Of a DNA stretch of 64,000 nucleotides, positions 5,664 through 23,866 are shown one piece after another. The DNA is taken from assembly GCA_026391315.1 (NCBI GenBank), contig JAPLDT010000042.1, forward strand, positions 1 to 64,000, given 5' to 3'. Made by a program: the position numbers and the translations under genes. Each line of letters begins with the position of its first letter. Position 1 is the stretch's first letter. The notes under the pieces are model-generated. The model was not told the DNA's origin. It did not search any database and saw only the letters and a list, made by a program, of their open reading frames with translations. The stretch comes from Bacteroidia bacterium (lineage in GTDB: Bacteria; Bacteroidota; Bacteroidia; Bacteroidales; Prolixibacteraceae).

Positions 5664-6061
5664 AACCCAGGCTTGATGATTTATTCAAATATAGCAATTA
5701 TTTGGCTGTATTCCAAGCAGAAAGGAATCAATTTTGCACCCAATTGACGGGGTCACTCTGAGTCACCCCGTCAATTGACAAAACAACCAGGTATTTCATT
5801 GAGTTTTAGGGAGAATTTTCGATGAAGGATTGAATAAACAGATCAGATACTTATCTTTAGGGAATTGGATCTGGTGAGATTAGTTCGTCATTTTGGTGTT
5901 TGCATAAAGTTTTGTGGCGAATGAATACGATCTCCGCTGGTTTTTCCTCCATTTTGCGTCATATCTATGATAAAGGTTTGAATAATTAGAATTTGACCTA
6001 TATCCTGATTGATTATTAATTGGTCTTTCTTGCAGGAAGAAAACGCTTAAAAATATTGATA
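5664..6061. other. Divergent intergenic region with palindromic repeat
   Basis: This 398-bp gap separates the leftward TPR-like gene from the rightward lipoprotein/sigma operon. It contains the 5741-5777 palindrome and must contain promoters for both sides. I could not identify a convincing Bacteroidota promoter pair. No gene or RNA was recognised. Confidence 0.6.
5741..5777. repeat. Palindromic repeat GACGGGGT..ACCCCGTC, copy 1
   Basis: Two 17-bp arms (5741-5757 and 5761-5777) around a ctg loop pair perfectly except for one C-C mismatch. The core is shared with 18659-18687. Here it lies between divergent gene starts, so it is not in a terminator position for either annotated neighbour, which argues that it is a dispersed element rather than only a terminator. 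Confidence 0.75.
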
Positions 6062-6505
6062 ATGAAACAATTGACGTCGATTATTCTGGTTGCTGTTTTT
6101 GCCGTATCAATCCTAAGTTGTGGCTCTGGCAACAAATCCAAACAAATTAAAGAGTACAAATACACGGAGGAGAAGGCAGCCGTTGCAGGTGTTTTGCAAA
6201 AAAAGGTGGGACCCTGGATCAAAGAGGGAATGACTTGCTATGGTATCGTCATCCTTGCCGATAAGGATGGTATCCCAAAGAAAGTAAAAGAGATTGAAGC
6301 CAGGGTCGTATCGATCCAACCCGACAAAATCAAAATGAAAGCAATGGAAGATTTGGTGCTTGCTCCTGTTGAGGGGTGCACCAAAATAGGCATGAAAAAA
6401 GGTGAAACTTGGGACGAACTGGAGGGAGACCTGTTTCAGACAAGAGCGGAGGCAATCAAACATATTGATACCAAATATCCCGAAACACAAGTTATTATTA
6501 AGTGA
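6062..6505 (+). CDS. Small conserved lipoprotein, first gene of the sigma-factor operon
   Basis: The 147-residue product starts at the ATG at 6062 with a lipoprotein signal peptide (MKQLTSIILVAVFAVSILSC, lipobox ILSC at about 17-20). The mature part is charged and has Cys residues in GMTCYGIVILAD and VEGCTKIG, which could form a disulfide. I do not recognise the family. Its last codon and stop overlap the GTG start of the ECF sigma factor (GTGA), so the two are probably translationally coupled. That places an envelope lipoprotein ahead of a sigma factor and suggests a sensing or signalling role, which is inference. Confidence 0.72.
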   Translation: MKQLTSIILVAVFAVSILSCGSGNKSKQIKEYKYTEEKAAVAGVLQKKVGPWIKEGMTCYGIVILADKDGIPKKVKEIEARVVSIQPDKIKMKAMEDLVLAPVEGCTKIGMKKGETWDELEGDLFQTRAEAIKHIDTKYPETQVIIK

Positions 6506-7080
6506 ACGACAGGCAGCTGATTGAAAAAATATTGGCTCATAACGATCAGGCATTTAGTATTTTAGTCGAAAAACACAAGAAGATGGTCTATGGGACCATC
6601 TTTCGTATTGTCCGTAACAAAAGCGATGCCGAAGATCTTTTTCAGGAAGTTTTCCTGAAAGTATACAGTTCTGCCTATCAACTTCGCAACCTGGAGGATC
6701 TTTCTGGTTGGCTGTTTAAAATTGCTTACAACAAATCCATCAGCTTTCTTAGAAAGAAGAATCCGGCGAAAGCCAACTCCGAACAGGCTAAAAAATCGCC
6801 TCTACAGATGATATTGGCACACATTAACTACGCCGAAAAAGAGACCCAGGATTGGAAAATGGAACAGGATGAGGCCAGGGTCATGCTCTTCTCCGCCATT
6901 GACCGATTGCCTGAAATGCAAAAGAAAGTTCTGCTGATGCACAAATTTGAGGATTATTCGCACAACGAAATATGTCTCAAATTGAACCTTTCTCAGGCTG
7001 CTGTTGAATCGCTCATCTATCGGGCGATGTTTTCACTTCGTAAATTTTGCCATGCTCACTTTACCAAACATTTAAAATAA
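6502..7080 (+). CDS. ECF-type RNA polymerase sigma factor
   Basis: A 192-residue extracytoplasmic-function sigma factor that directs RNA polymerase to a stress or envelope regulon. Region 2 is seen at about 10-75 (SDAEDLFQEVFLKVY) and region 4 at about 130-188 (LPEMQKKVLLMHKFEDYSH, then NLSQAAVESLIYRA). The GTG start overlaps the lipoprotein stop by four bases. Downstream are a CpxP-like membrane protein and a zinc-finger anti-sigma candidate, which is the usual arrangement for metal- or envelope-responsive ECF systems in Bacteroidota. Its target promoters probably include the downstream cluster, but no ECF promoter motif was identified. Confidence 0.93.
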   Translation: MNDRQLIEKILAHNDQAFSILVEKHKKMVYGTIFRIVRNKSDAEDLFQEVFLKVYSSAYQLRNLEDLSGWLFKIAYNKSISFLRKKNPAKANSEQAKKSPLQMILAHINYAEKETQDWKMEQDEARVMLFSAIDRLPEMQKKVLLMHKFEDYSHNEICLKLNLSQAAVESLIYRAMFSLRKFCHAHFTKHLK

Positions 7081-7086
7081 AAGGAT

Positions 7087-7593
7087 ATGACTAAGAATCA
7101 GCAAATATTCAAATGGCTGAATATTTTTTTATTGATCATCAATGTATCGGCTTTTGTCACTTTTTTGCTCATGAACCGGCAAAACAGCTCCCTCCACGAT
7201 ACGAAGTTCAGCTCTGACCAGTTTTTACAAACAGAACTGGAGTTAACTCCGGATCAATACAAGAAAGTATCTGCATTAAACAACGATGTATTCCGCCTTT
7301 ACCAGGTTTTTCTGGATAAAAAATGCGAATTGAACTTCCAGCTGGTGGATGAACTTGCCACCGAAAAGCCCTCAGACGAAAAAATGGATTCCTTGTCGAA
7401 CCGGATCGGACAGCTGGATGCTGCCCTGAAGAAGCAAACAGTGCGGCATTTTAAGAATGTCAAAAGTGTCTGTACGGAGGAGCAGAAACTCATGCTCGAT
7501 GAGCTTTTGAAAGAGATGCTGGACGCCGGCGATCAATGCAAGGTATGCAACAAAATCAATTGTGCCCGGCGCGATCGGCTGATCAAAAAGTAA
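7087..7593 (+). CDS. CpxP/ZraP-like periplasmic heavy-metal sensor protein with N-terminal membrane anchor
   Basis: The 168-residue protein has one N-terminal transmembrane helix (about 10-29) and a periplasmic helical domain. The segment ELTPDQYKKV at about 53-62 is the LTxxQ-type motif of the Spy/CpxP/ZraP group. The C-terminus is Cys-rich (CKVCNKINC), a plausible metal-binding tail. It starts 6 bp after the sigma factor. Proteins of this kind are annotated as periplasmic heavy-metal sensors and accompany ECF sigma factors. It may bind metal and modulate the anti-sigma factor encoded next; that link is inference. Confidence 0.75.
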   Translation: MTKNQQIFKWLNIFLLIINVSAFVTFLLMNRQNSSLHDTKFSSDQFLQTELELTPDQYKKVSALNNDVFRLYQVFLDKKCELNFQLVDELATEKPSDEKMDSLSNRIGQLDAALKKQTVRHFKNVKSVCTEEQKLMLDELLKEMLDAGDQCKVCNKINCARRDRLIKK

Positions 7594-7653
7594 ATAATCA
7601 GAAAATAGTTGAATTGTCCGCAAGATTTTTAACCCTGATGCGTCTTAATAATT

Positions 7654-8055
7654 ATGAACTGCAAACAATCCTACAAATACCTTCATTCGGAAATTGACGG
7701 AGACGAATTTGTCCATCATCTCAAGGAGTGCAAATCTTGTTCTGAGTTGTTCGGAAAGATCAGTGAAACCATCTCCATTTTGGACGAGGATGTTGACATT
7801 CCAATGGGTTTGACTGAGAATGTGATGAAGGGTATCAGCAGGATGGAAGTTCCGCAGGGAAGGGCCTCAATCGACCTGAATAAATATTTGCAGCTGGCTG
7901 CCGTAGTAGCTGTGGGTATCTTCCTCGGAGTCATGCTTGGGAGTCGTGCAGATAAACAAATTTTCCTGTCGAAAAAGTATAAGAAAGAAAAAGCCTTGAT
8001 AGAATACCGCGAAAGTCATCATTTAAGCGAGCAGGATAACATTTACAGTTTCTGA
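7654..8055 (+). CDS. Putative anti-sigma factor with zinc-finger-like N-terminus and one membrane helix
   Basis: The 133-residue protein begins with MNCKQSYKYLHSEIDG and has HHLKECKSC at about 28-36, giving the H-x3-C-x2-C pattern of zinc-binding anti-sigma (ZAS/zf-HC2) domains. One transmembrane helix is at about 87-105 (LAAVVAVGIFLGVMLGS), followed by a short charged tail. It is in the same operon as the ECF sigma factor, two genes downstream. The expected role is to hold the sigma factor at the membrane until a signal is sensed. The short periplasmic tail means that signal input probably comes from another protein, such as the CpxP-like neighbour. Confidence 0.75.
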   Translation: MNCKQSYKYLHSEIDGDEFVHHLKECKSCSELFGKISETISILDEDVDIPMGLTENVMKGISRMEVPQGRASIDLNKYLQLAAVVAVGIFLGVMLGSRADKQIFLSKKYKKEKALIEYRESHHLSEQDNIYSF

Positions 8056-8101
8056 TTATGAAGGAACAAAAACTGACCTAATACTTTTTGGAAATCATTT
8101 T

Positions 8102-10015
8102 ATGAGCAAAAAACCTAAACCAACCAACTGGCCCCGCCCGGTGATCCAATGGGGAGTCATATTTGCAATCCTTGTGATTGCCCTCATCCCTAGGTTCAAT
8201 ACCAATTTTATTCCGGATTTTGAAGCCTATTGTCCCTTTGGAGGAATACAAGCGCTAGGCAGTTACCTGCTCAACCAGGCGTTGTCGTGTACCATGACGA
8301 GCGCTCAAATAGCGATGGGTATCATTATGATACTGGCGGTCTTTGTTTTCAGCAAGCTGTTTTGTGCCTACATCTGTCCAGTCGGAACCATCAGTGAGTG
8401 GCTGTTTAAACTGGGTGACAAACTGAACGTCAACATCACCATCAAAGGAGTTGCCGATAAGGCGTTGCGTTCACTGAAATACATTCTGCTTTTTATTACT
8501 GTCTTTTTTACTTTTAAGTCGAACGAGCTGTTTTGCAAAAAATTTGATCCCTATTATGCAATAACCACAGGTTTTAGCATCGATGTCGTTGTGCTCTATG
8601 CCTCCATTGCCATCGTTCTTGTCATTTTGGGATCGGTTTTTATCCGTCTGTTTTGGTGTAAATACATCTGTCCGCTGGGAGCCATTTCGAACATATTTAA
8701 ATACACCGGGTTCTTCCTCCTCGTGTTGGTTGGCTACGTCCTGTTGCTCAAACTTGGCCTGAACATCCATTATGCCTGGCCGTTGGCGATTGCCTGTATC
8801 GGAGGTTATGCCATCGAACTGACCGGCTTCGCGACCAAAACCTTTCCACTTCTCAAAATTACCAGGAACGAAAATAGCTGTATTGACTGCCAGCTCTGTT
8901 CGCTTAAATGCCCTCAGGCCATTGATGTGGCAAGTATGAAGGTGGTCAGGGAAGCTGATTGTAACCTTTGTGTGGAGTGTATTTCGGTGTGCCCTGTTAA
9001 AGATACCCTCCAAATTAACAATAAACCAAGCTTTCGCTGGATACCTGCGATTGCCACAGTAGTGCTGGTTGTTGCTGGAATATTTATTGGATCTTTGTGG
9101 GAATTGCCTACCATCGACCAACAATGGTATGGGAAAGAGGTGATGGCTAAGGCTGAGATTTTCACCCAATCAGGATTGAAAAATGTCAAATGCTATGGCA
9201 GTTCTATGGCTTTTGCGGCTAAAATGAGACCGGTAAATGGTGTTTTGGGAGTCGCTACTTACGTCAAGACCCACAAGGTCAAGATTTATTTTGATCCTCA
9301 GAAGCTTACCTCGACAAAGATCCAGGAGATGCTTTTCACTCCTTCCAAAGCAATTTTAAAACCGCTAAAACAAGGGGTTGAAGAGGTGAAAGAGGTGACC
9401 GTTTATCTGGATAATTTCTTCGATCCATTCGATTTCAGTTACCTGACCCGCCTTCTGATGGATAGAACTGCGGCTGTTGGATTGGTCACCGAGTATGCAT
9501 GTCCGGTATTGGTTAAGATCTACCTGCCTGGGGACTATGATATATCAGAAAGCGAACTGATCTCGGTTTTGGAATCGAAAACATTGTCATTCATGGTGGC
9601 AGAACAGGAAAAGACGGTTGAGCTGGGATACAAAGTCAACAAAGCGCCTGTTTTCAAGACTATTTCAAAGGATGAATATTCCAATATTCTGTTCCGGCCC
9701 TATATCGTTCAGTTCAATGGTTTTACAAAATATGACTCTTCAGCAGTGAAAACGCTCAAGTTTCCGATGGGGAAAAACAAGGAGAACAGGGCAAAGCTGA
9801 ACTATCTGGTTAGTCACCTGTCGAACAACAGAGGAATCATTGAATTTCGTACCTTGTTGAACGAAAAGAATGAGGAATTGGTGGCCGTTTCTTATGTAGA
9901 TTCTTTGACCAATGCGCAAACGGTTTTCCAAACTTTAAACAATGATACCCTGATTTTTAACAATCGTGACGGCTCAAAGGGGAGGATGGAAAATACCTTT
10001 AAGTTTGAGGAGTAG
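8102..10015 (+). CDS. NapH/NosR/CcoG-like membrane polyferredoxin with C-terminal HMA-like domain
   Basis: A 637-residue inner-membrane iron-sulfur protein. About six membrane helices precede residue 245. Two CxxxCP motifs lie at the membrane (Cys88/Cys92 and Cys186/Cys190), as in NapH, NosR and CcoG. Two [4Fe-4S] ferredoxin motifs follow (Cys260/263/266/270 and Cys287/290/293/297), then another helix at about 313-332. Residues about 348-415 resemble a heavy-metal-associated fold (GVLGVATYVKTHKVKIYFDP) but have only Cys364 instead of CxxC. The remaining 200 residues are unassigned. It may feed electrons from quinol or a cytoplasmic donor to metal reduction or cofactor assembly; the downstream ABC genes recall NosF/NosY. 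Function is inferred. Confidence 0.82.
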   Translation: MSKKPKPTNWPRPVIQWGVIFAILVIALIPRFNTNFIPDFEAYCPFGGIQALGSYLLNQALSCTMTSAQIAMGIIMILAVFVFSKLFCAYICPVGTISEWLFKLGDKLNVNITIKGVADKALRSLKYILLFITVFFTFKSNELFCKKFDPYYAITTGFSIDVVVLYASIAIVLVILGSVFIRLFWCKYICPLGAISNIFKYTGFFLLVLVGYVLLLKLGLNIHYAWPLAIACIGGYAIELTGFATKTFPLLKITRNENSCIDCQLCSLKCPQAIDVASMKVVREADCNLCVECISVCPVKDTLQINNKPSFRWIPAIATVVLVVAGIFIGSLWELPTIDQQWYGKEVMAKAEIFTQSGLKNVKCYGSSMAFAAKMRPVNGVLGVATYVKTHKVKIYFDPQKLTSTKIQEMLFTPSKAILKPLKQGVEEVKEVTVYLDNFFDPFDFSYLTRLLMDRTAAVGLVTEYACPVLVKIYLPGDYDISESELISVLESKTLSFMVAEQEKTVELGYKVNKAPVFKTISKDEYSNILFRPYIVQFNGFTKYDSSAVKTLKFPMGKNKENRAKLNYLVSHLSNNRGIIEFRTLLNEKNEELVAVSYVDSLTNAQTVFQTLNNDTLIFNNRDGSKGRMENTFKFEE

Positions 10016-10165
10016 TAGAAAATAGTGGACAGAAAGTGAATTAGTTTTATAGCTCATTTTCGTTATGGCTCAAATGTCTGTTATTCCCAGTAGATTTAAT
10101 GATCTACGAATGAACGTTTCTGATTTGTTTACTTATAGTTGATATTAATGGTTTAAAATAAGCTC

Positions 10166-13018
10166 ATGTCAAACAAACTAATCATTATCCTATTTTTAAT
10201 TGTTTGCGCACTTGGTCTGAGTGAAGCAAATGCCCAGGAGAAAGTTACGGTTAGAGGGAAAATTACCGATGCCGATAATCAGGCTCCGATTCTGTATGCC
10301 AATATAACCTTCCCGGAATTGGCCTTAGGTACAACTACCAATGAAAATGGTGAATTTGTTATTCATTCTGTTCCGGTTGGTACCTATAGGTTCTCAGTAA
10401 CCAATATTGGGTACAAGGAGTATTCGCTTTCTATTAGCTTGAAGCAGGATATTACAATGAATATTAAGCTTGAGCAACAGTCTTTGGGACTGAAAGAAGT
10501 AACTGTAACTGCCGAGCAGTCAACCAGTGGAACGACTTCTTCAAAAATAAAAAGTGAAGCCATCAACCATGTTCAGGCCTCCAGTTTGAAGGACGTCATG
10601 CAACTGGTGCCGGGAAATCTTTTGTTGAATCCGAATTTGGGAAACCCCGGAAAATTAAGTATTCGAGAGATTGGGGAAGACATTAACAGTGCTTTGGGTA
10701 CTGCTGTAATCGTTGACGATATTCCGGTGACGAACGACGGAAATATGCAAAAGGCCATGGAAACCGGTAGCAGTATGGCAACCTATTCTGGAAGCGGTCT
10801 CGATACCCGGAGCATATCGGTTGACAATATCGAATCCATAACGGTTGATGTGGGTATCCCATCGGCTGAACATGGGAACCTGACTTCAGGAGCAGTAAGG
10901 ATTAAAACCAAATCGGGAGGTTCTCCATTTAATGTAAAAGTTAAAGCCGACCCAAAAACGAAGCAGGCATTTATCAGTAAAGGATACCTGCTTGGCAACG
11001 ACAAGGGGGTTGTCAATGTGGATATGGATGCTGCACATTCGTACGCAGAAATCTATAAAAAGACCAATTTATATGATCGCTACAATCTGTCAACCAAATA
11101 CTCTCAGACGTTTTTCAGGGAAAAGAACCCGTTAAATATTGAAGGGAAATTAGATTTTTCATACAATATTGACGGAAATGAATGGGATCCTGATATGATA
11201 GCACAGGAAAAAGCTTATTCGAAAGAAACCGGGATCATGGGAAAATTGTCGGCATCGTGGATGCTCGACAAATCATTCCTGTCCAGTTTGTCCTTAGACC
11301 TCAGTTACAGCATGGACTGGCAAACCGGATTTGAAAAAAAGCTGGAAAGCAGTTCGAGTGGCCCCTCTTTCTATTCAACGGCTACAACCAATGGCGAAAA
11401 CCAGATTTACTTCGCTCCATCAAGTTATTATTCGGAAGTTACTTATGACGGGAAACCTTATAATATCTATGCCAAACTGAAGGGTACCTCATTCAATAAA
11501 ACCGGGATCTTTACCCACAAAGGTTTGTTTGGGGCTGAATGGCGCACGACAGGGAACAGCGGTGCTGGACGTCTCTATGATACGTCCAGGCCAGCCAGTG
11601 GTTTAGGTACCCGTCCACGCCCGTTTACCGATATTCCCGCTTTAAACCAGTTCTCGTTATTCGCTGAAGATAAAATAACAACCAATATCGGTTCAACCGG
11701 ATTGGAAATGACTTTGGGTTTAAGGATGGACAATATTCAGCCTAACGGTCCATTCGCTACAAATGGCAGTATTGGCGTCGACCCGAGAATCAATGTAAAA
11801 TACAATGTACTGAACCGCAAGAACAACAAACTGTTTAAAGATTTCAGTTTAAGATTCGGCTATGGAAAAACGACCAAAGCCCCTACTTTAATCCATTTAT
11901 ATCCCGACCGGGAGTATAGCGATGTGATCAGTTTTAACTATTACCCCAATTTGATTGTATCAACAACCAATGTTGTGGACACCAAAAATTATGACCTGAA
12001 GCCCACGAAAAGTAACAAATACGAAGCCGGGTTGGATTTTCAAATCGGGCAGGTAAAAACCAGATTAACAGGATTCTATGAGGAGCATAGGGGTGGCTTT
12101 ATAAATGATCAGGTTTATTATCCAATGAATTACAGACGTTACAATGTGCTGGCAGCAGGCTTAAGCCCATATTATGTACAAAATGATGGTGTGTACTATA
12201 AAGATGCCAGTGGAATTGCGGTAAAAGTTGGTTATACCAATGATGTAAAGTTCTCATCTTATGAGCAATACCGTAACGCTTCGACCAGAATAAAAAGAGG
12301 TTTGGAATATACCATTGATTTTGGCAAGATCAAAGCACTGCAGACTTCGTTTATGGTTACCGGTGCCTGGTTGAAGACAGAATCGTACACTGAAGATGCT
12401 CCTTATTGGCAACGCATTGGTTATACCAGCTATGCAAGTGGTGTCAGCAAAGATGAATCCTTTGCAGTTAAGTTTAAGAATCAATTTGGTTATGGAACAG
12501 TTTCCGAAAGGTTGAATACAAACATCAGCATCATCAACCACATCCCAAAACTGAAGATGATTGTTTCGCTGACCACCCAAATTATTTGGTATGAAAAGGA
12601 CTGGCGGAAAATTTATTCAGACGATAAGTTTTATTCACTCTCCGAATTAAGAAGCTATTTGGGGAATTCCAATTTATTCAGCGCGGAACAGGAAGAAACG
12701 TATAATTACAGACTTCCGGTAAGTTACAAGATGTACGACAATGTGGAACATCTCTATGCTCCCGGTGATTTTGCCCAGTCGTTGCACCAGTTGACTATAG
12801 ATAAAGAGTTAAAATTCCGGTTTGGTGAAAATAGTTGGCCTGCACTTTTCTTGTGTAACCTTAACATCTCGAAGGATATTACCAAACAGATCAAACTGGC
12901 CTTCTACGCGAATAACTTCCTGAATATCAGACCAAGGCATTTGAATGACAGGGAGGGTTCTTACAATCGGCGCAACCAGGTGCCATTCTTTGGGGCAGAT
13001 CTCACATTCCAATTTTAA
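10166..13018 (+). CDS. TonB-dependent outer-membrane receptor (non-SusC)
   Basis: A 950-residue TonB-dependent transporter. It has a signal peptide ending ANAQ (about 1-23), a carboxypeptidase-regulatory-like domain (about 27-110), a plug domain (about 125-250, LKDVMQLVPGN) and a 22-strand-type barrel ending in F (LTFQF). No SusD partner follows; instead there is a DUF4876-like lipoprotein, so this is not a glycan SusCD pair. The family imports siderophores, cobamides, haem, metals or peptides. Its position after the metal-sensing sigma operon and the polyferredoxin favours a metal or metal complex as substrate, which is inference. A 150-bp gap upstream may hold a separate promoter. Confidence 0.9.
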   Translation: MSNKLIIILFLIVCALGLSEANAQEKVTVRGKITDADNQAPILYANITFPELALGTTTNENGEFVIHSVPVGTYRFSVTNIGYKEYSLSISLKQDITMNIKLEQQSLGLKEVTVTAEQSTSGTTSSKIKSEAINHVQASSLKDVMQLVPGNLLLNPNLGNPGKLSIREIGEDINSALGTAVIVDDIPVTNDGNMQKAMETGSSMATYSGSGLDTRSISVDNIESITVDVGIPSAEHGNLTSGAVRIKTKSGGSPFNVKVKADPKTKQAFISKGYLLGNDKGVVNVDMDAAHSYAEIYKKTNLYDRYNLSTKYSQTFFREKNPLNIEGKLDFSYNIDGNEWDPDMIAQEKAYSKETGIMGKLSASWMLDKSFLSSLSLDLSYSMDWQTGFEKKLESSSSGPSFYSTATTNGENQIYFAPSSYYSEVTYDGKPYNIYAKLKGTSFNKTGIFTHKGLFGAEWRTTGNSGAGRLYDTSRPASGLGTRPRPFTDIPALNQFSLFAEDKITTNIGSTGLEMTLGLRMDNIQPNGPFATNGSIGVDPRINVKYNVLNRKNNKLFKDFSLRFGYGKTTKAPTLIHLYPDREYSDVISFNYYPNLIVSTTNVVDTKNYDLKPTKSNKYEAGLDFQIGQVKTRLTGFYEEHRGGFINDQVYYPMNYRRYNVLAAGLSPYYVQNDGVYYKDASGIAVKVGYTNDVKFSSYEQYRNASTRIKRGLEYTIDFGKIKALQTSFMVTGAWLKTESYTEDAPYWQRIGYTSYASGVSKDESFAVKFKNQFGYGTVSERLNTNISIINHIPKLKMIVSLTTQIIWYEKDWRKIYSDDKFYSLSELRSYLGNSNLFSAEQEETYNYRLPVSYKMYDNVEHLYAPGDFAQSLHQLTIDKELKFRFGENSWPALFLCNLNISKDITKQIKLAFYANNFLNIRPRHLNDREGSYNRRNQVPFFGADLTFQF

Positions 13019-13029
13019 AATAAATTGTT

Positions 13030-14241
13030 ATGAAACGAATTAAAAATATAGCGTTTTTGTTAGGATTTTTGTATTGCTCATGTGGCAAATATTCTATCCC
13101 TGAAACATACCAGGTAACTTTTAAAGTAAATTATCCCGTACTTTTTGATGGAGGGAAAAGTGTTAACAATGTTACAGTAAAAATCACGAATGTTCAAACC
13201 GGGCGAGAGTATACTCAAACCACGAACAACGCTGGAACTGCACTTTTCGATGTAAGGGGAGGAAACTATAACATCATGGTCTCTTTTTCTGAAGATAGGG
13301 ATGTGAACATTGATGGGTTCATGTTTAAGAAAACGGTACTGTTTAACGGCACTGTTAACAGCCAGTCTATTACCGCAAGCGGAAACGAATTAGCTATACC
13401 CTTGCAATATTCGATAGTCAAAGAAGGTTTTATAATAAAGGAACTTTATACATCAGGAAGTAAAACCCCGGCAGGTAAGTCTTATGGTGCGGATAAGTTT
13501 TATGAGATCTACAACAATTCAGATAAAATTTTGTATTCCGACGGACTTTGTTTTGGGGCAGTATATCCTACTCCAACCAACAAACCAACTCCTTATGTCG
13601 ATGCCAATGGAAAATTGCTTGACCGAATCCCGGTATGGAGTTTTGTAGTCATCGTGCCCGGCTCGGGTAAGGAGCATCCTATTCAACCGGGTAAGTCGTT
13701 TGTGGTTGCCCTATCTGGCTTGAACCACAAGGCTGATCCAAACGGAAATCCCAATTCGATAGACTTATCCCGTGCTGACTGGGAAATGTACGTTGACAAA
13801 GGTATGTATGCCGATGTGCCGTCGGTACCCAATATTTTAATGCAAAGGATTACAGCGGGGACAGCAATGACTTTGGATGTTGCCGGCCAGGTAAGTATCC
13901 TGTTCCGACTGCCTGCAGGTGATTTGCAAACCATTTTTACGGATACGAATAATTATCTTAAAGTGGTTGGAAGTTCTTTCAGTTGTTTTATGGTGCCTAA
14001 ATCATGGGTTATCGATGGAGTAGAAAATGCCCGTTTAAGCCCGGAGGGAGTATACAAACGTTTGCATGATGAAATTGATGTCAGTTACATTCAGCACCGG
14101 GGATCTGGTGAGAAAGTCTCGATTACCAGAAAAGTTAGCGAGGTAGTCAATGGACGTACCATCTATAAAGACACCAACAACTCTGCGGAGGATTTTTTAA
14201 CGAACCAGGATCCAACACCCGGAATAATTGCTAAAAACTAA
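13030..14241 (+). CDS. DUF4876-like outer-membrane-associated lipoprotein
   Basis: The 403-residue protein has a lipoprotein signal (FLLGFLYCSCGKY; lipobox cysteine about 16-18). Residues about 25-130 look like a carboxypeptidase-regulatory or Ig-like beta domain (VTFKVNYPVLFDGGKS). The larger C-terminal part (about 135-400) includes KFYEIYNNSDKILYSDGL and resembles a lamin-tail-like beta domain. I recall this arrangement as DUF4876, found next to TonB receptors in Bacteroidota; that match needs a profile search. It starts 11 bp after the receptor gene, so it probably works as the receptor's surface or periplasmic partner, taking the place of SusD. Confidence 0.7.
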   Translation: MKRIKNIAFLLGFLYCSCGKYSIPETYQVTFKVNYPVLFDGGKSVNNVTVKITNVQTGREYTQTTNNAGTALFDVRGGNYNIMVSFSEDRDVNIDGFMFKKTVLFNGTVNSQSITASGNELAIPLQYSIVKEGFIIKELYTSGSKTPAGKSYGADKFYEIYNNSDKILYSDGLCFGAVYPTPTNKPTPYVDANGKLLDRIPVWSFVVIVPGSGKEHPIQPGKSFVVALSGLNHKADPNGNPNSIDLSRADWEMYVDKGMYADVPSVPNILMQRITAGTAMTLDVAGQVSILFRLPAGDLQTIFTDTNNYLKVVGSSFSCFMVPKSWVIDGVENARLSPEGVYKRLHDEIDVSYIQHRGSGEKVSITRKVSEVVNGRTIYKDTNNSAEDFLTNQDPTPGIIAKN

Positions 14242-14247
14242 ACGAAG

Positions 14248-15831
14248 ATGAAGAAACGGCTTACTATACCAGTTTATATGCTACTGATTGTTTTCAGTAG
14301 CAATACATTGATGGCAGTTAATTCTGGCAGCGATACCCTAAAATGCAGCTCCTTATCGGCCGAAAAGTTGTTAAACCTGAAAACAGTTTGGTCTGAATCG
14401 AGCAATGCCGCCTCATTGGCCTTTTTCGATTTTGACGGGCATTTTGGCGAGGCGTATTTTGGATTTCATAATGCGAATGGCGATTACCGCTTGTTTCAAG
14501 CTCATGATCAGTCCAATCAATACGGGTTTTATTCCAATGGCTACATGAAACAAGGTGACTGGAAATTCTATGGTAATTTCAACTATTACAACGCCCAGGA
14601 AAAAGACATCAAGTGGGTTGATATGATTGAGCCATACAACGGGAATCCATATTCCGTCGGCGATTCAATCGGTGGTAATTATTGGAAAGAGTATTTTAAA
14701 ATGCAGGGGAAAGTGGCCTTTAGCTTAAACAAACTGATTTCACTGGGTTTCGATGTGAGATACGATGCAGGTGTAGGGACCAAAAGGAAAGATCCACGAC
14801 CAACAAATACCATTACCAATTTCGATATCCGCCCGGGGGTTGTACTAAACTTTGATAAAATAAAGCTTGGGGCCAACTTCAGGTACCAGGGGGAAAAAGA
14901 AGATCTTGATTTTAATTTGGTCACCGGTAATCATTACAGCATTTTCTATTTCAAAGGTTTGGGAGTTTATACATCAGAAGCTTCAACAGCAGTTGGATTG
15001 AATGATAGTTATACCGAATCGAATTTGTACGGAGGAAGCGTTCAAATTGCCTTTCATACAAGACTTTTCAAAAACTACACTTCGGTTAATTTCGATAAGA
15101 AAGTTACCGATATCCAACGCGGAGCCTCCGATCCTCTGCAAATAGCCTTGGTGGATAATTATATCACCGATGTTAATTCTGTTTTTCTTTTCGGATCGAA
15201 CGAAAAAAAAATAAACAGACTCGAATTAAGCTATCTCAAACAGAAGATTTATGGACTGGAACCTGTTGTTGAACCCAAACTTCAACAGGTAACCTACCAG
15301 TGGTCGACCGTTGCCAAATACACGCTTTACTGGAACGAGGCAAGCGAGTACAATGTGAATTACTCGTACTACAATCTTTTTGATGCAGGTAGCATTAACT
15401 GGGGGGCAAAAATCAACGGTAAAGTTCGCTCAGACAAAACCACCTACTATTTTGTACCCGAATACAACAAGCTAGAGTATAATCAGTTTGCTGTGGATGC
15501 ATTGCTCGAAAAAGGGTTCGTGTGTAAAAAATGGGAAAGCCTCTTCTCCGTCAATGGAGGATACCGCAAAAGTTTCGGCAACATATTGGAAGTTGTTACT
15601 GATAAAAAACTTTTGGAGAGTGTCAGGATGGATTTTATAAATAAGGACTTTAACTACAATACTTCAGGGCTTTGGCAAGTTGGCGCTAATGCCAAGGTAG
15701 GAAGAGAAGTTTCAATAAATCATTCTCCTATCCAGGTTTTTTTGGAAGCAGGTTATAAAATGGTGGTTTCCGACCTTCCGGGTAATCCGAAATGGAAAAT
15801 TGCAGAGGTGAAATTAGGGATGAATTTTTAA
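14248..15831 (+). CDS. Outer-membrane beta-barrel protein (DUF6850-like)
   Basis: The 527-residue protein has a signal peptide (about 1-23, ending LMA) and alternating aromatic/polar strands throughout, ending VKLGMNF with the C-terminal Phe typical of barrels inserted by the BAM machinery. It has no plug domain. It follows the DUF4876-like gene by 6 bp and precedes the ABC ATPase by a few bases. The set TonB receptor, DUF4876, barrel, ABC transporter and DUF4857 appears to be a recurring Bacteroidota cluster (from memory, not checked). It may be a second outer-membrane channel in the same transport route. Confidence 0.72.
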   Translation: MKKRLTIPVYMLLIVFSSNTLMAVNSGSDTLKCSSLSAEKLLNLKTVWSESSNAASLAFFDFDGHFGEAYFGFHNANGDYRLFQAHDQSNQYGFYSNGYMKQGDWKFYGNFNYYNAQEKDIKWVDMIEPYNGNPYSVGDSIGGNYWKEYFKMQGKVAFSLNKLISLGFDVRYDAGVGTKRKDPRPTNTITNFDIRPGVVLNFDKIKLGANFRYQGEKEDLDFNLVTGNHYSIFYFKGLGVYTSEASTAVGLNDSYTESNLYGGSVQIAFHTRLFKNYTSVNFDKKVTDIQRGASDPLQIALVDNYITDVNSVFLFGSNEKKINRLELSYLKQKIYGLEPVVEPKLQQVTYQWSTVAKYTLYWNEASEYNVNYSYYNLFDAGSINWGAKINGKVRSDKTTYYFVPEYNKLEYNQFAVDALLEKGFVCKKWESLFSVNGGYRKSFGNILEVVTDKKLLESVRMDFINKDFNYNTSGLWQVGANAKVGREVSINHSPIQVFLEAGYKMVVSDLPGNPKWKIAEVKLGMNF

Positions 15832-15840
15832 TTTTTTTTG

Positions 15841-16728
15841 ATGAATAATGTAATAGAGTGTAGAAACCTTACGCATTACTACGGTAAAAAGATGGTTTAC
15901 GAAAACCTGAATATTCATGTCATGGACGGTAGTATCCTCGGTTTGCTGGGTAAAAATGGTGCAGGAAAAACAACAACGATCAATATCTTAAATGGCTTTC
16001 TCCAGCCCCGAAGCGGCGAATGCCTTATCTACGGTGAAAATTCCCAACATCTGACTCCCGCCACAAAAGCGAGGATTGGATTCCTGATTGAAGGGCATAT
16101 CCAGTATACATTCATGAATATTCACCAGATCGAAAAATTTTATTCGGGTTTTTATCCCAATTGGAAGCCGGCGCCATACTGGGAGCTGATGTCCAAATTA
16201 AAAGTTTCCCCAACCCAGAAGATCTCAACCATGTCGTGCGGACAGCGTTCGCAGGTGGCGCTGGGACTTATCCTTGCGCAGAACCCCGACCTGCTGATCC
16301 TCGACGACTTTTCGATGGGGCTGGATCCGGGCTACCGTCGACTCTTCATAGATTACCTTCGCGAATATGCCAAATCGGAGAACAAAACCATTTTTACCAC
16401 ATCACATATCATCCAGGACATGGAACGTCTCATCGATGATGTGCTAATCATGGACTACAACAGGGTGTTGGCGCAATGTCCAATCAGTGAATTTATGACC
16501 ACCTTCAAACGTTTTGACTTCGAGCTTGAGAATGATCAGGTAAATCTGAAAAAGGAGCCATTTGTCAGGAATCTGGAAATGGTTAAAAATAAGGTTGAGT
16601 TGTATACCTATGAATCAAAAGAGTTTGTACAAAAATTCCTTGAAAACAATAGCGTTGGTCACAAAGGGTTCAAGCAGGTAAAGATGGAGTTGGAAGATGC
16701 ATTTATTGGATTAACAGGAAAATATTAG
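15841..16728 (+). CDS. ABC transporter ATP-binding protein with altered signature and Walker B
   Basis: A 295-residue cytoplasmic ATPase, starting at the ATG at 15841. Walker A is GKNGAGKT (38-45), the signature is MSCGQ (131-135) instead of LSGGQ, and Walker B reads LLILDD, so the catalytic Glu is Asp156. The D-loop SMGLDPG and switch His189 (TTSH) are present. The C-terminal 80 residues form the extra domain seen in export-type ABC-2 ATPases such as NosF, CcmA and YtrB relatives. The permease gene follows after 3 bp. An ATPase with Glu-to-Asp may hydrolyse ATP slowly. Likely role: export or insertion of a component needed by this locus. Confidence 0.88.
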   Translation: MNNVIECRNLTHYYGKKMVYENLNIHVMDGSILGLLGKNGAGKTTTINILNGFLQPRSGECLIYGENSQHLTPATKARIGFLIEGHIQYTFMNIHQIEKFYSGFYPNWKPAPYWELMSKLKVSPTQKISTMSCGQRSQVALGLILAQNPDLLILDDFSMGLDPGYRRLFIDYLREYAKSENKTIFTTSHIIQDMERLIDDVLIMDYNRVLAQCPISEFMTTFKRFDFELENDQVNLKKEPFVRNLEMVKNKVELYTYESKEFVQKFLENNSVGHKGFKQVKMELEDAFIGLTGKY

Positions 16729-16731
16729 ATT

Positions 16732-17400
16732 ATGTGGAAATCAATTGTATACAAGGAGTGGTTAAAGATCAGGTGGTTCCTGATTGGTTTTACCACACTG
16801 GGAATTGTGGGAATCGGATACCTGTTTCTCAAAGTGCAGCATGGATTTACCTTCAACGGCGGAAGCGGTTTCTGGTACAACATCCTGTTTATGGGATTTC
16901 AGTTTTTCGGCTATTTTAAATACTTCCCGCTTTTTGGCGGGTTATTGATCGGTGTGGCCCAGTATTTTCCTGAGACCATCAACAAAAGGATCAAGCTAAC
17001 CTTTCACCTTCCCCTGAAAGAGAACAATGTGCTTTTGATGATGCATGCCTTTGGCGTTGTCTGTCTATTAATCTCTTTTTTGCTTCTGCTGGGCATGTTC
17101 GTTACCATGAGCAATTTCTATTTTCCATCTCAAATGGTATATGATTCTGTTGTCTCGGTAATTCCCTGGTTTCTCGCCGGACTGGTTGCCTACTTCTTCG
17201 TGGCGCTGATCGTTTTAGAACCGGTCTGGATGTACCGTTTTTTTTATACGCTGGTAGCAGGATTCTTTGCAGATATATATATAAAATCGCCGGTGATTGC
17301 GGCATACGGGCCAGCTATTCCGGGATTGTTTGTTTTAACAATCCTGATGAGTGTTGCTCTCTTGTTCTCGGCTTACCGTTTTAGAAAGGGGGAAATGTAA
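16732..17400 (+). CDS. ABC-2-type transporter permease
   Basis: A 222-residue integral membrane protein with six predicted helices (about 14-34, 53-70, 103-125, 138-160, 163-185 and 193-214). It begins with MWKSIVYKEWLKIR, the amphipathic N-terminus usual for ABC-2 permeases, and has the cytoplasmic segment NKRIKLTFHLPLKENNV between helices. It is the obvious partner of the preceding ATPase (3-bp gap) and is followed by the DUF4857-like gene after one base, so the three are almost certainly one complex or pathway. Size and order recall NosY. Substrate unknown. Confidence 0.82.
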   Translation: MWKSIVYKEWLKIRWFLIGFTTLGIVGIGYLFLKVQHGFTFNGGSGFWYNILFMGFQFFGYFKYFPLFGGLLIGVAQYFPETINKRIKLTFHLPLKENNVLLMMHAFGVVCLLISFLLLLGMFVTMSNFYFPSQMVYDSVVSVIPWFLAGLVAYFFVALIVLEPVWMYRFFYTLVAGFFADIYIKSPVIAAYGPAIPGLFVLTILMSVALLFSAYRFRKGEM

Positions 17401-17401
17401 G

Positions 17402-18637
17402 ATGGAAAAGTTTAGCAGAATTATATTGGTACTGGTAGCCATACTGATCTTGGCCATTACGCTTCCTATGCTTTATTGGATGGCCTTCGAAAAACCGATC
17501 AAAAAACCGAATGTTTTTTACAGTTGTACTGACGATGATTTTTTCATTCAACGTGCCGGAACACCCATCATATTTGAAGATAGCAAGGGGAACAAATATA
17601 CCCGTGAAAAGTTTGAGCAAAAGTTGCCTATGATGAATTTTCAACAGTTGATGGTATCCGGTCTGATGCCCGATTCGATCAAGGGCAAGGCCATTGATAT
17701 ACACGAAGTCGGACGCAACAGGTCGTTTATCCGGATCAAACCGGAGGATATGAACTGTCCTAAGCCAAAACTTTTCCCAATGTTTGAATCCCAGTCGGGC
17801 AGGGCCAGCCTTGAGCTGCCAAATGATTATTTCAGGATAACCTGGAGGGTTGAGTTTATTGATGCAGGAAGCAATAAAATTTTGGAAGAGAAAAGCCAGC
17901 TATTTTCAGCGGCTTTGTACCACAAGGGTTTCGCTTTCCCGGCTATTAAAATTGAGGGGATACCAACGACCAGGAAATCCTGCGACGAAGGTTACCTGAT
18001 CGTTGATTCATCCAATCAACTTTTTCATGTTAAAATGATCAAAGGTCAACCCTTTGTGAAAAAAATTAGCCTTCCTGAAGGGTTGAAGTTTAAGCACATC
18101 GCATGTGTGGATTTTAAGGACAAGAAGTACTACGCCTACTTAATTTCAGATAAGGATGGGATCTACATTCTTACCCAGGATGAGTATGAACTGATTAAAT
18201 TTCCTGTAACAGAGTATGATGCCGGAAATTGTGAACTAAAAATCTTCGGGGACCTCTTCAATTACAATGTGACTGTGGATGCCGAAGGCCATACTGACGT
18301 AATTATTCTCAATAAGGAGTACAAAAAGGTAGATAGTTACCACGAAAGCTGGCCCAAACTTTCAGATCGAACGGAGGGTAAAATATTCGGATATCTGTTC
18401 CCTGTAGAACTGTTGATGGAAGACCGCAACAGTAAATACATTAATTTTTACTGGAAGGGTTCGGGAGGCAAGGGTTGGATCATCCTGAACCTCTTGTTGG
18501 TAGCTGTGCATTTTTTGATATTGCGCCAACGAGAGGCCAAATTAAAGGGTCATACAGTGGATCTGGCTTTGGTAGCAGTCACAGGTATTTATGGTTTTCT
18601 GGCCGTACACCTTTTTCAGAACAAGTTTTTCGACTAA
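17402..18637 (+). CDS. DUF4857-like membrane protein with large periplasmic domain
   Basis: The 411-residue product starts at the ATG at 17402, one base after the permease stop. It has an N-terminal membrane helix (about 5-28), an extracytoplasmic region of about 325 residues rich in beta strands (NVFYSCTDDDFFIQR, then repeated propeller-like segments such as KKYYAYLISDKDGIYIL) and two C-terminal helices (about 358-375 and 387-405). I recall such proteins as DUF4857 linked to ABC-2 genes in Bacteroidota; the match is from memory. The topology suits a periplasmic adaptor of the ABC transporter, in the way NosD works with NosFY. It is the last gene before a terminator-like hairpin. Confidence 0.7.
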   Translation: MEKFSRIILVLVAILILAITLPMLYWMAFEKPIKKPNVFYSCTDDDFFIQRAGTPIIFEDSKGNKYTREKFEQKLPMMNFQQLMVSGLMPDSIKGKAIDIHEVGRNRSFIRIKPEDMNCPKPKLFPMFESQSGRASLELPNDYFRITWRVEFIDAGSNKILEEKSQLFSAALYHKGFAFPAIKIEGIPTTRKSCDEGYLIVDSSNQLFHVKMIKGQPFVKKISLPEGLKFKHIACVDFKDKKYYAYLISDKDGIYILTQDEYELIKFPVTEYDAGNCELKIFGDLFNYNVTVDAEGHTDVIILNKEYKKVDSYHESWPKLSDRTEGKIFGYLFPVELLMEDRNSKYINFYWKGSGGKGWIILNLLLVAVHFLILRQREAKLKGHTVDLALVAVTGIYGFLAVHLFQNKFFD

Positions 18638-19983: not shown

Positions 19984-20547
19984 TTAATACTCTTTGTAAA
20001 TGTTTTGAAGCCGTTCGCGCAGGTACGCAACTGCGTAACGTTTTCGTGAGATGATCGTTTTAATGCTTTCCCCGGTTTTGTCGGCGATCTCCTGGAGTGT
20101 CTGATCTTCCAATTCGTTCCACACAAAAACATCTCTTTGTTTTTCAGGTAATTCACTCAAAGCGGCAAAGAGGGATTCCCTAACAAACTCCTTTTCAAGC
20201 TCAGCTGCAGGATCTGTGCTGTCCAAAAGCAAAGCTTCAGGATAGACCATCTCCCCCTCCTCATCTTCGTAGGCAAAATCTGCCAGTGATTGAGGAGTTT
20301 TTTTTCGGTTTTTGTCCACAATCCGGTTTTTGCTAACACGATAAAGCCATGAACTGAGCTGAACAATGGGTTCTGTTTCGATGATGGAACTAAGCTGGTA
20401 CCAGACATCCTGCAGAATATCTTCGGCGTCTTCATCGTTTTTTACGCGGCTGCGTATAAAACGGAGCAAACGCTTTCCATACTCTTGCACGGCATTTTGA
20501 ATACTCTGCTGTCGCTGCGCCATCGGTATAGCAATTAATTCGTCCAT
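19984..20547 (-). CDS. ECF-type RNA polymerase sigma factor (second)
   Basis: A 187-residue ECF sigma factor. Region 2 lies at about 18-90 (DEDAEDILQDVWYQL, then LYRVSKNRIVDKNRKK) and region 4 at about 130-182 (LPEKQRDVFVWNELED, then IADKTGESIKTIISRKRYAV). It starts the two-gene operon with the small Cys/His-rich membrane protein. It is unlike the sigma factor at 6502 in sequence, so it is not a recent duplicate. The region between the two regions is acidic (EDEEGEMVYPEA). Targets are unknown; the NrfD trio upstream on the same strand is separated by a decayed palindrome. Confidence 0.92.
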   Translation of the reverse strand: MDELIAIPMAQRQQSIQNAVQEYGKRLLRFIRSRVKNDEDAEDILQDVWYQLSSIIETEPIVQLSSWLYRVSKNRIVDKNRKKTPQSLADFAYEDEEGEMVYPEALLLDSTDPAAELEKEFVRESLFAALSELPEKQRDVFVWNELEDQTLQEIADKTGESIKTIISRKRYAVAYLRERLQNIYKEY

Positions 20548-20609
20548 ATTGAGGTAGACGAATAAGCGGGAAAATTACTTTAAAAAGGGGATGTTTTTTA
20601 ATAAACTGA

Positions 20610-20634
20610 TGGAGTGACCCTGAGTCATAATCCA
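20610..20634. repeat. Decayed palindromic repeat, copy 3
   Basis: The sequence tggagtgaccctgagtcata keeps the gtgac-ctg-agtca centre of the palindromes at 5741 and 18659 but has lost much of the outer pairing. It lies 29 bp after the NrfD-like gene's stop, before the sigma factor start. Confidence 0.45.
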
Positions 20635-20662
20635 TAGTAAAGCTAATAATTGTTTGTGACTA

Positions 20663-21889
20663 TTAATTCTCTTTTTTTTGGTTTAAACTATCAATATTAT
20701 AATTTTCAAATATGATTGCAATGGCAATTTTTAACAGAATGGTAAATACCAATGAACCAAGAGAGAATATCATCACAGCAGTCCTAATTTCTGTCATTGA
20801 AGGTGTGTAAACATAAATCTGTCCTAATACATCAGGAGTAAATCCAGGGATGATCAGGGCTATTCCTTTTTCTACATAGACGCTGGCATAAATGAGAACT
20901 GCGCCAATATTTAAAGTTATAAAATTTTTCCTGGTAGCTGGAATCAGGAAAAGAACAAAAGCAATGCACCCCATGATAATAGATGACCAGCTATAGACCA
21001 CCAGCTCTTTGTTGTCGCCAATGCCAAGCAGCAAATATTTCCAATAGAGAACATGCTCTGTCCCTGAATAAAACTCCTTAAAAAGTTCGGCAACCGAAAA
21101 GAAAAGATAAATAAACATAGAGTAAACCATCAATTCAGCGATGGTCCATATGGCCTCATCTTTAATTTCGAACTTCGTTATTTTCCTGAGTATTTGAAAT
21201 AAAATCAAGAGAATAGCCGGACCGGAACAAAATGCGGAAGCTAAAAACCTTGGTGCAAGTAAGGCACTGTTCCAGAACGGGCGTGCAGGCAAAGCATTGT
21301 AAAGAAAAGCAGTTACCGTATGAATGGAAACAGCCATTGGGATGCTGAATAAGACAAGCCATAACACAAATGTCTTATTGTACTGTTTTTTGTAGAAAGT
21401 GCAATAGAGCAAATAAGTTACAACGACTGAATTTATTATCAGATAAATGTTAAGCGCGAAAAAGTCCCATGAAAGCAACGAGTATGGGAAGTTCATCGTC
21501 CCAACGATTGGTAACATGTGCCAGAACCTGAGTGGTCTGCCAATATCTACTACGATAAAGGAGATACACATAATGACCGCACAGACTGCCAGCAGTTCTC
21601 CAAATATTACGATTTCTTTAATTGGTTTCCAATTGTAAATATAAGCCGGGATAACCAACATAACAGCAGCGGCAGCTATTCCGACCAGAAAGGTAAAATT
21701 CCCTATGTAGAACGCCCATGATACCGAATCTCTCATATGAGTTTTAATCAGTCCGTCACTTAGCTGAGCAGAATATCCAAATCCTCCCCAAATAATCAGT
21801 AACACCAGAAAAGTCAGCCAGGCGTAATATGTTTTACTTCCCCGGAGGGTTATCTTTCCACAATCGATTATAAAATGAAAAAAATTCAT
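20663..21889 (-). CDS. NrfD/PsrC-like quinone-interacting membrane subunit
   Basis: A 408-residue integral membrane protein with about ten helices (the first near 23-43, then regularly to about 390). The features match the NrfD/PsrC family: it transfers electrons between the menaquinone pool and a periplasmic FeS subunit without haem. It is the third gene of a leftward set: tetraheme cytochrome, four-cluster FeS protein, NrfD. No molybdopterin or NrfA catalytic subunit is next to it. The set therefore resembles an electron-transfer module in the manner of NrfBCD, or a reduced form of the alternative complex III core. Direction of electron flow cannot be inferred. Confidence 0.85.
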   Translation of the reverse strand: MNFFHFIIDCGKITLRGSKTYYAWLTFLVLLIIWGGFGYSAQLSDGLIKTHMRDSVSWAFYIGNFTFLVGIAAAAVMLVIPAYIYNWKPIKEIVIFGELLAVCAVIMCISFIVVDIGRPLRFWHMLPIVGTMNFPYSLLSWDFFALNIYLIINSVVVTYLLYCTFYKKQYNKTFVLWLVLFSIPMAVSIHTVTAFLYNALPARPFWNSALLAPRFLASAFCSGPAILLILFQILRKITKFEIKDEAIWTIAELMVYSMFIYLFFSVAELFKEFYSGTEHVLYWKYLLLGIGDNKELVVYSWSSIIMGCIAFVLFLIPATRKNFITLNIGAVLIYASVYVEKGIALIIPGFTPDVLGQIYVYTPSMTEIRTAVMIFSLGSLVFTILLKIAIAIIFENYNIDSLNQKKEN

Positions 21890-21935
21890 ATTAGAATTTG
21901 TTAATTTTTTATCTATTTGAAACTATGATAAACTT

Positions 21936-22826
21936 TTAGATTCCGAAGAAATAATAAAATTTTGGTTGAGTGTTTAGTTCTTGTTTCAAAACGAGAACCC
22001 GCTTATTTGCAAGAATGTACCTGACTTCGCTTTCGGGATCCAAAAGGTTTCCAAATTTTCTTGCTCCTACCGGACAAATTTCAACACACGCCGGGTATTT
22101 GCCCTCTCTTGTTCTCTGAACGCAAAATGTGCATTTTTCTACAACACCTTTCATCCTTGGCCTATTTCCCAAATAGTGCATTTCTGTATTTATTTCTTCT
22201 GCCGGTACATTGGGCTCGCCCCAGTTAAAATGCCTTGCACCGTAAGGACAGGCTGCCATGCAATATCTGCAACCAATGCACCAGTTGTAATCAATTACAA
22301 CTATTCCGTCAGGTTCCTGCCAGGTTGCCTTAGCCGGACACACCTTTATACATTGAGGGTTTCTACATTGCTGACAACCAATTGGTACATAAAAATGATC
22401 TTTGTCAGGTACTGTTTCCGGATTATATTGTACAGTAGAATACGCAAAATCTATCCCCTTTTCCTTTTCCATTTGAAGAACCTGTATCCAGTGAATTTGT
22501 GGATTCCTCGACTGGTTGTTCTCTTTCACACAAGCATACACACACCTTCTGCATCCTATGCATCGGGATAAATCAAGCGCGTAACCAAATAAAGTCTCTT
22601 CAAGGGCTGGTTTGGCTGATAGATGAAAATCCTTGTGGTACTTTTCTTTGTATTCGATTACCAAATTCTTAATTAAATCATCAACCTCCTTTTTCGTCAA
22701 TGTTCTAAAGTTCTTTTGAAGGAATTCATCAACTTTCTTCATATTACAACCAGAAAGAGCAAGTGCTGAAAATGTTGCTAATGACAGATTTTTTAAAAAT
22801 ATCCTTCTAGAATTTTCCTTTTTCAT
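21936..22826 (-). CDS. Periplasmic four-cluster [4Fe-4S] ferredoxin subunit (NrfC/PsrB-like) with Tat-like lipoprotein signal
   Basis: A 296-residue electron carrier. The N-terminus SRRIFLKNLSLATFSALAL is a twin-arginine signal followed by LSGC, with Cys27 as a lipobox cysteine, so the protein is probably exported folded and lipid-anchored. Sixteen Cys in four groups (89/92/95/99, 151/154/159/163, 183/186/189/193, 232/235/247/251) bind four [4Fe-4S] clusters as in NrfC and PsrB. It lies between the cytochrome and NrfD genes with short gaps (26 and 46 bp) and should pass electrons between them. Confidence 0.9.
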   Translation of the reverse strand: MKKENSRRIFLKNLSLATFSALALSGCNMKKVDEFLQKNFRTLTKKEVDDLIKNLVIEYKEKYHKDFHLSAKPALEETLFGYALDLSRCIGCRRCVYACVKENNQSRNPQIHWIQVLQMEKEKGIDFAYSTVQYNPETVPDKDHFYVPIGCQQCRNPQCIKVCPAKATWQEPDGIVVIDYNWCIGCRYCMAACPYGARHFNWGEPNVPAEEINTEMHYLGNRPRMKGVVEKCTFCVQRTREGKYPACVEICPVGARKFGNLLDPESEVRYILANKRVLVLKQELNTQPKFYYFFGI

Positions 22827-22852
22827 TTCAGTTATAATATCGATTCATAATG

Positions 22853-23434: not shown

Positions 23435-23866
23435 CTGTTTATAATTTTGTTTTTTAGTTGCCAGATGGAACTCTCAATAATCATCCTCCTGTGTGTGAAA
23501 GATTTTCTCATGGTCGTTTCATAATTAGTTTACTTTTCAATTATAATTAAAAACCGGCTTATCAGAGTGTCTGATACACAGTATTTTTAAATTATGTATT
23601 TACCTAAAAGGTTGTTTTTTGATATAGTAATCTTAGAAACACGTCATATCAATAGCATAAGCTAAAGAAAAGCACCTTATTTGTTGTAACGAAATCGGAT
23701 AGTTAGTATTGCCGCATAAATATAACGCAATAATGATCTAAACTTAACAAAAAAATTAAATTAAATAGTCGATCCTTATAAATTCAATTTTACTGTTGAA
23801 AATTCAAAGAATAAGAGTTGCTGAAAAATTGAGAGGTAAGGTTGATACAAACTGAACAATAGGTAG
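23435..23866. other. Intergenic region upstream of the cytochrome operon
   Basis: 432 bp of AT-rich sequence between the leftward cytochrome operon and the end of the leftward response-regulator gene. It must hold the cytochrome operon promoter. I saw no gene, RNA or strong hairpin, and no clear CAAAnnTA (reverse-strand -7) element next to the start. Confidence 0.5.

Follow-up and report, generated by a model that had tools for sequence, protein, structure and literature searches.

We analysed a 64,000-nucleotide window (positions 1 to 64,000 of contig JAPLDT010000042.1, assembly GCA_026391315.1) from a Bacteroidia bacterium of the family Prolixibacteraceae, which carries at 6062-18637 a cluster of eleven genes that an initial annotation, made from the sequence alone, had interpreted as a likely metal or redox-cofactor system, little described so far, combined with import across the outer membrane. 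All eleven open reading frames were found, co-linear and on one strand (plus). The gaps between them are mostly 3-60 bp and two pairs overlap, Lip and the sigma factor gene by 4 bp and the permease and DUF4857 genes by 2 bp. The sole large gap, of 150 bp between the NapH and TonB genes, suggests a division into two halves, which agrees with the comparative locus data presented below. The first half opens with Lip (6062-6505), a small lipoprotein with an LSC lipobox and a conserved CYG..GC..W motif but no Pfam family, followed by an extracytoplasmic function (ECF) sigma factor (6502-7080; Pfam Sigma70_r2 8.1e-15, r4_2 3.2e-13), a CpxP/CnrX-like membrane-anchored periplasmic sensor (7087-7593), an anti-sigma factor with one transmembrane (TM) helix (7654-8055) and a NapH-type polyferredoxin with three tandem, predicted periplasmic HMA-like domains (8102-10015). 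The second half comprises a TonB-dependent outer-membrane receptor (10166-13018; Plug 3e-8, barrel 4e-16, CarbopepD_reg_2 8e-19), a DUF4876 lipoprotein presumed to be its partner (13030-14241; PF16215 1.5e-33, and PDB entry 4q1z, 'Putative lipoprotein', 2.5e-24), DUF6850, a candidate outer-membrane barrel (14248-15831; PF21012 1.6e-79), an ABC ATPase (15838-16728; ABC_tran 2.3e-20), an ABC permease of 222 aa (16732-17400), aligned with its relatives and belonging to no Pfam family, and DUF4857 (17399-18637; PF16149 4.2e-87). Pfam and NCBIfam scans agree with this naming, the matches of the CpxP-like sensor and of the anti-sigma factor being weak.

We then surveyed 96 non-redundant DUF4857 loci and used the 75 that were well flanked (more than 9 kb upstream) for neighbour counts. 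On the same strand these carry the ABC ATPase in 74 cases, the permease in 71, the TonB receptor in 63, DUF6850 in 57 and DUF4876 in 56. As for the accessory genes, Lip is found in 28, at the start of the operon, NapH in 18, and the pair of sigma factor and CpxP-like sensor in 12, always together with NapH and never alone. Of 120 family genomes 42 encode DUF4857, and of 388 from the order 50 do. Relatives of the window NapH were detected in 21 of the 120 family genomes and, at E<=1e-10, in 40 of 295 genomes from the order, where some matches were weak and short; they also occur on named contigs of Bacteroidales, Alistipes, Calditrichota, Melioribacter/Ignavibacteria and KSB1. The cluster is a genuine, widely conserved and modular bacterial gene set: the genes that the initial annotation had grouped recur together, far beyond chance, in dozens of genomes from many families and in other phyla. 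The linkage of NapH to this core is strong, yet not universal. Whether it always holds, a question raised with the initial annotation, is answered in the negative from both sides, by the DUF4857 counts above and by 109 non-redundant NapH loci, where TonB/DUF4876 or DUF4876/DUF6850 lie near in 53, the ABC module in 28 and either of them in 61.

A gap of 150 bp, a TonB gene without a sigma promoter before it, and a NapH/sigma block that disappears as a whole from loci that keep the core would all fit two unrelated neighbours, a redox-stress module of NapH and sigma genes and a TonB/ABC importer. However, in Bacteroidales, Calditrichota and Ignavibacteria NapH lies next to TonB/DUF4876 or ABC/DUF4857, in differing orders, which argues for a functional link, and we regard the separation into two unrelated systems as quite improbable. 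Other genes accompany NapH elsewhere. In many relatives (L069, L116, L133 and others) a secreted BNR/YCF48-type propeller of 690-940 aa, with a type IX secretion system (T9SS) sorting tail, is encoded between NapH and TonB; this gene is absent from the window cluster. An S46-like peptidase gene, presumably of the DPP7 type, lies directly 3' of NapH-HMA in 32 of the 109 NapH loci, in gut and rumen Bacteroidales (L164, L165, L186, L189 and others). The genome of the window also holds a second NapH-HMA gene (L102, G000:C58:26985-28782), apparently frameshifted into frames of 368 and 267 aa and located 3' of genes resembling ftsH, cdsA, psd and pssA; a pssA-like gene also lies just upstream of a full cluster in another genome (G061, L108), and the two together suggest a common insertion site. 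Tandem duplicated permease-DUF4857 pairs occur outside the TonB/DUF4876 setting in some genomes (L140, L256, L263).

Of the 75 well-flanked loci, 34 encode a PepSY-TM protein, a small lipoprotein or both; none of them has NapH within the distance window, and the window cluster contains no PepSY gene. The PepSY-type order of another DUF4857 locus, L238, matches the published order of BT3625-33 in Bacteroides thetaiotaomicron. The exclusivity of NapH and PepSY is not evidence of repeated swapping, because a DUF4857 tree separates the two types by one deep split (two state changes, one being a mixed locus), and the Fisher p of 3e-6 for repeated replacement was discarded. We also rejected homology between Lip and the small lipoprotein that PepSY loci encode, as only their signal peptides align. 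Within the NapH lineage, NapH and the sigma trio have been lost several times, with Lip and the core remaining, and a genome-wide search did not find NapH in most of these genomes. NapH is therefore accessory, not essential, and forms with the trio of sigma factor, CpxP-like sensor and anti-sigma factor an accessory module. In one DUF4857 operon a flavodoxin-like gene (L110:154-651), of a kind reported to be up in low iron in the group, lies 3' of the PepSY gene.

The NapH protein has two Fer4_5 matches (Pfam, 1e-12) and aligns with TIGR02163 (NapH/MauN) at 3.3e-13 and 49.8 bits, below the cut-off of 213. It has about seven TM helices, seven long helices being predicted in its AlphaFold2 model (pLDDT 83.6). 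Both CxxxCP motifs (C88/C92 and C186/C190) and two 4Fe-4S motifs (C260..C297) are present, and in 40 of 40 aligned relatives Cys44, 63, 88, 92, 145, 186 and 190, the eight ferredoxin cysteines and Cys364 are invariant. The CxxxCP motifs and the ferredoxin cysteines at 260-297 are predicted inside; Cys44, Cys63, Met65 and Cys145, the methionine also being kept in every sequence, are in loops predicted outside. Positive-inside counts (mean K+R 5.3 and 9.5 for two of the inside loops, against 0.8 and 1.6 for the main loops outside) and the seven predicted helices place the C-terminal arm in the periplasm and the Fer4 region in the cytoplasm. For this arm the initial annotation had proposed an HMA-like tail. 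That description fell short, since the model has three beta-alpha-beta-beta-alpha-beta HMA-like domains (352-418, 428-499 and 549-620). Comparison by VIA-align and Foldseek relates these folds to MerP (root-mean-square deviation 2.1 over 63), CopZ (2.0 over 67), CzcP (2.8 over 73) and also MNK1, and a PDB profile search matches copper-ATPase HMA domains to residues 355-410 (best E 0.016). Structural Z scores of 5.8-7.2 give moderate support to the predicted HMA identity.

Since HMA folds are typically Cu(I) or Zn sites, the system might handle copper, with the NapH protein as a CcoG-like copper reductase or copper-handing protein and the importer scavenging copper, for example for haem-copper oxidases. 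CcoG and the cluster NapH are both Fe-S proteins of the membrane that have been linked to metal reduction. CcoG is a cupric reductase (PMC8456105), a TonB copper importer of Bordetella adjoins a related PepSY-TM gene (PMC12914433), the cluster sensor is Cys-rich, and a COX1-family oxidase occurs in 17 of 21 NapH-cluster genomes. However, the other four (G169, G207, G214 and G250) have the cluster without COX1, and in B. thetaiotaomicron it is iron that regulates the core. The cluster NapH further differs from CcoG in having the HMA arm and in not lying at a cbb3 locus, and no CcoG profile with E<=0.01 was among the matches listed. In the arm itself, only the first domain has a ligand-type motif, which is CxxS in place of the Cu(I)-type CxxC (C364-x-G366-S367, invariant in 40/40), and no cysteine is conserved in HMA2 or HMA3 of the aligned proteins, so that the arm is unlikely to form the canonical Cu(I) site with two thiolates; His572, in HMA3, is near-invariant. 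On balance, we consider a copper system an unlikely explanation, albeit one to be taken seriously.

Nos-type cofactor assembly, to which the initial annotation had likened the cluster, was not borne out. The two have in common a NapH/NosR-like membrane Fe-S protein, an ABC ATPase, a permease and a periplasmic partner, and the cluster NapH shares CxxxCP motifs, two [4Fe-4S] sites and a multi-TM architecture with the NapH/MauN and NosR polyferredoxins; a nos-like role in the assembly or maturation of a periplasmic metalloenzyme would follow this pattern. But the periplasmic partner, DUF4857, is predicted to differ from NosD: its AlphaFold2 model (pLDDT 89.8) has a TM anchor, further TM helices at the C-terminus and, in the periplasm, a partial beta-propeller, with propellers as the closest structural matches (Z up to 9.3) instead of a NosD-type beta-helix. 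A profile search of DUF4857 against the PDB gave no match, and searches of the TonB receptor and the permease against PDB sequences gave nothing useful. In the 120 family genomes, TIGR04246 found no NosZ over its cut-off, only partial matches to the CuA domain, with no control genome over the cut-off either; PF18764 gave no matches, and as its control was silent too, TIGR04246 was used. The Pfam scan found Fer4-type families alone in the NapH protein and no FMN-binding domain, the operons hold no recurring client enzyme, and the cluster NapH, unlike its namesakes, has the three-domain periplasmic arm and the extra Cys44/63/145 and does not lie beside Nap, Mau or Nos enzymes. The VIA-align matches listed for its membrane part included neither a NosR nor a NapH structure, although a match of this kind may still exist. 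A nos-like function is thus very improbable.

The regulatory genes point to a switch of the cluster's own. An upstream motif, GCYRGWTTTW-N9-TGCGTC, is conserved 5' of Lip in sigma-bearing relatives and common to P1, 5' of Lip in the window (5936-5960, plus strand; GCTGGTTTTT-N9-TGCGTC, an exact match and the sole one in the whole genome), and P2, in the interval between the CpxP-like and anti-sigma genes (7620-7644, plus strand; one mismatch). In 17 sigma-bearing loci, 23 sites with at most two mismatches were found at P1/P2, versus 0 in 850 shuffled 400-mers. Some of these 23 sites had gone into deriving the motif, so a genome-wide scan served as an independent test. Over 21 whole genomes the strict motif gave nine matches, all within the cluster, and none in the ten sigma-less genomes. 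With the relaxed motif, 15 of 18 matches in sigma-bearing genomes were within the cluster, and those outside were no commoner than matches to a reversed control pattern. No site was found upstream of TonB. P1 and P2 are apparently, to judge from the motif, promoters of an ECF sigma factor devoted to the cluster.

What this switch responds to is suggested by its sensor, in which alignment revealed an invariant C80 and CxxCNKxxC, compatible with a thiol-liganded metal or a redox signal. The initial annotation had named a CpxP-like metal sensor and a zinc-type anti-sigma candidate, and both were borne out in part: the sensor has a weak Metal_resist match (0.002), below the cut-off, and the anti-sigma factor (NCBIfam antisigma 1.1e-05, and alignment) does have the ZAS-type H-x3-C-x2-C motif, which is not kept among its relatives. 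The trio resembles CnrYXH of Cupriavidus in its ECF sigma factor, putative periplasmic metal sensor, TM anti-sigma factor and predicted self-activating promoters, CnrH activating both cnrYXH and its target operon (PMC4803752). It differs in its Cys-rich sensor, of marginal sequence similarity (NccX profile E 0.46), and in accompanying an importer-type cluster instead of a resistance-nodulation-division (RND) pump. Given that CnrYXH drives an efflux system (PMC4803752), and that the closest matches to the ATPase are exporter-type ABC proteins, the trio might sense metal excess and the ABC part export the metal or a toxic ligand. The pairing of a TonB receptor with a partner lipoprotein is, however, an import signature, and the core in B. 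thetaiotaomicron, like the DUF4876/TonB genes of Porphyromonas gingivalis, is induced by starvation and not by excess, which makes detoxification improbable.

The closest described relative of the cluster is BT3625-BT3633 of B. thetaiotaomicron, which likewise has a TonB receptor, DUF4876, an ABC ATPase, a hypothetical protein in the permease position and DUF4857, but contains two PepSY-TM proteins, with NapH-HMA, ECF sigma factor, CpxP-like sensor and anti-sigma factor unreported there (PMC10434189). That locus is 37-128x up in iron depletion and is raised in colitis as well, and PG1019-22 of P. gingivalis (DUF4876/TonB) is 21-215x up in iron depletion (PMC10434189). The literature on DUF4876, DUF6850 and DUF4857 otherwise consists of transcriptomic mentions only. 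Since the core matches the iron-depletion-induced BT3625-33, iron is the best-supported cargo, and the conserved core, with its strongly induced counterpart, supports the general description of the cluster as a metal or redox system that imports across the outer membrane. We therefore favour, with a probability of about one half, a role in metal acquisition, most likely of iron as an iron chelate or haem, by TonB import, periplasmic reduction by NapH-HMA and a dedicated, CnrYXH-like sigma switch. Iron would be preferred over copper, and import followed by periplasmic metal reduction appears to be the simplest account.

Under this proposal, a metal complex would cross the outer membrane through the TonB receptor, the DUF4876 lipoprotein and the DUF6850 barrel. 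Electrons from cytoplasmic donors would pass through the two [4Fe-4S] clusters and the membrane Cys motifs of NapH to Cys44/63/145 and the HMA arm, where the metal would be reduced and freed. The ABC ATPase, the permease and the propeller-anchored DUF4857 may then carry out an ATP-driven step at the inner membrane, be it handing on, remodelling or export of the spent ligand. The sensor/anti-sigma/sigma trio would sense the periplasmic metal or thiol state and release the sigma factor, which would fire P1 and P2 of the cluster exclusively. Partial precedents exist. FoxB, of the PepSY-TM family, is cited in PMC12914433 as an Fe(III)-siderophore reductase. In FoxB/CrpH-type PepSY_TM systems an inner-membrane redox protein also adjoins a TonB importer; the protein family is unrelated, and the NapH type uses Fe-S clusters. 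FtrABCD is likewise a multi-part iron system, whose FtrD component is probably NapH-like; unlike it, the cluster has no Ftr1 permease or cupredoxin, and the FtrABCD unit has no TonB receptor.

Several observations weigh against iron acquisition by this route. Iron regulation is known for the PepSY-type relatives only and not for NapH-type loci, and a Fur box (7-1-7 consensus) was not enriched upstream of 50 operons (observed 9.28, shuffled 9.38). The HMA domains and the Cys-rich sensor fit copper too, and the ATPase resembles exporter types, the nearest solved ATPases in the PDB being ABCA-type. The single deep split between NapH and PepSY loci is weak evidence for their functional equivalence, and a Melioribacter locus (L217) has both NapH-HMA and the pair of small lipoprotein and PepSY. 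Finally, the core can do without NapH, as it does in at least ten genomes of the family. We advance only tentatively, and rather doubt, the more specific idea that NapH with its triple HMA arm represents a novel class of membrane-spanning reductase that acts on periplasmic metal. Its Fe-S clusters would lead cytoplasmic electrons to a CxxS arm that strips an imported complex of its metal, and it would be an alternative to PepSY-TM reductases in Bacteroidota and related phyla and operate under a single-cluster ECF sigma factor.

Outside the cluster, an inverted repeat (CAATTGACGGGGT...ACCCCGTCAATTG) at 5739-5780, in the interval that separates the cluster from the minus-strand gene upstream of it, is probably a bidirectional terminator. 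On the minus strand, 19984-26154 encodes an ECF sigma factor, NrfD, a 4Fe-4S subunit, a response regulator and a histidine kinase, with no catalytic subunit for the NrfD/FeS pair seen nearby.

Taken as a whole, the cluster is apparently a variant of a known, uncharacterised iron-starvation locus, in which the unusual NapH-triple-HMA protein and the apparently dedicated sigma factor are new. How iron, or another metal, is released after TonB import in Bacteroidota is largely an open question, and BT3625-33, which counts among the strong responses of a major gut symbiont to iron starvation, has no assigned function. The locus now gains a conserved parts list and a division into two lineages that differ in their inner-membrane redox protein. 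With a candidate reductase defined down to exact residues and a sigma-specific promoter motif named, both its cargo and its mechanism become directly testable.

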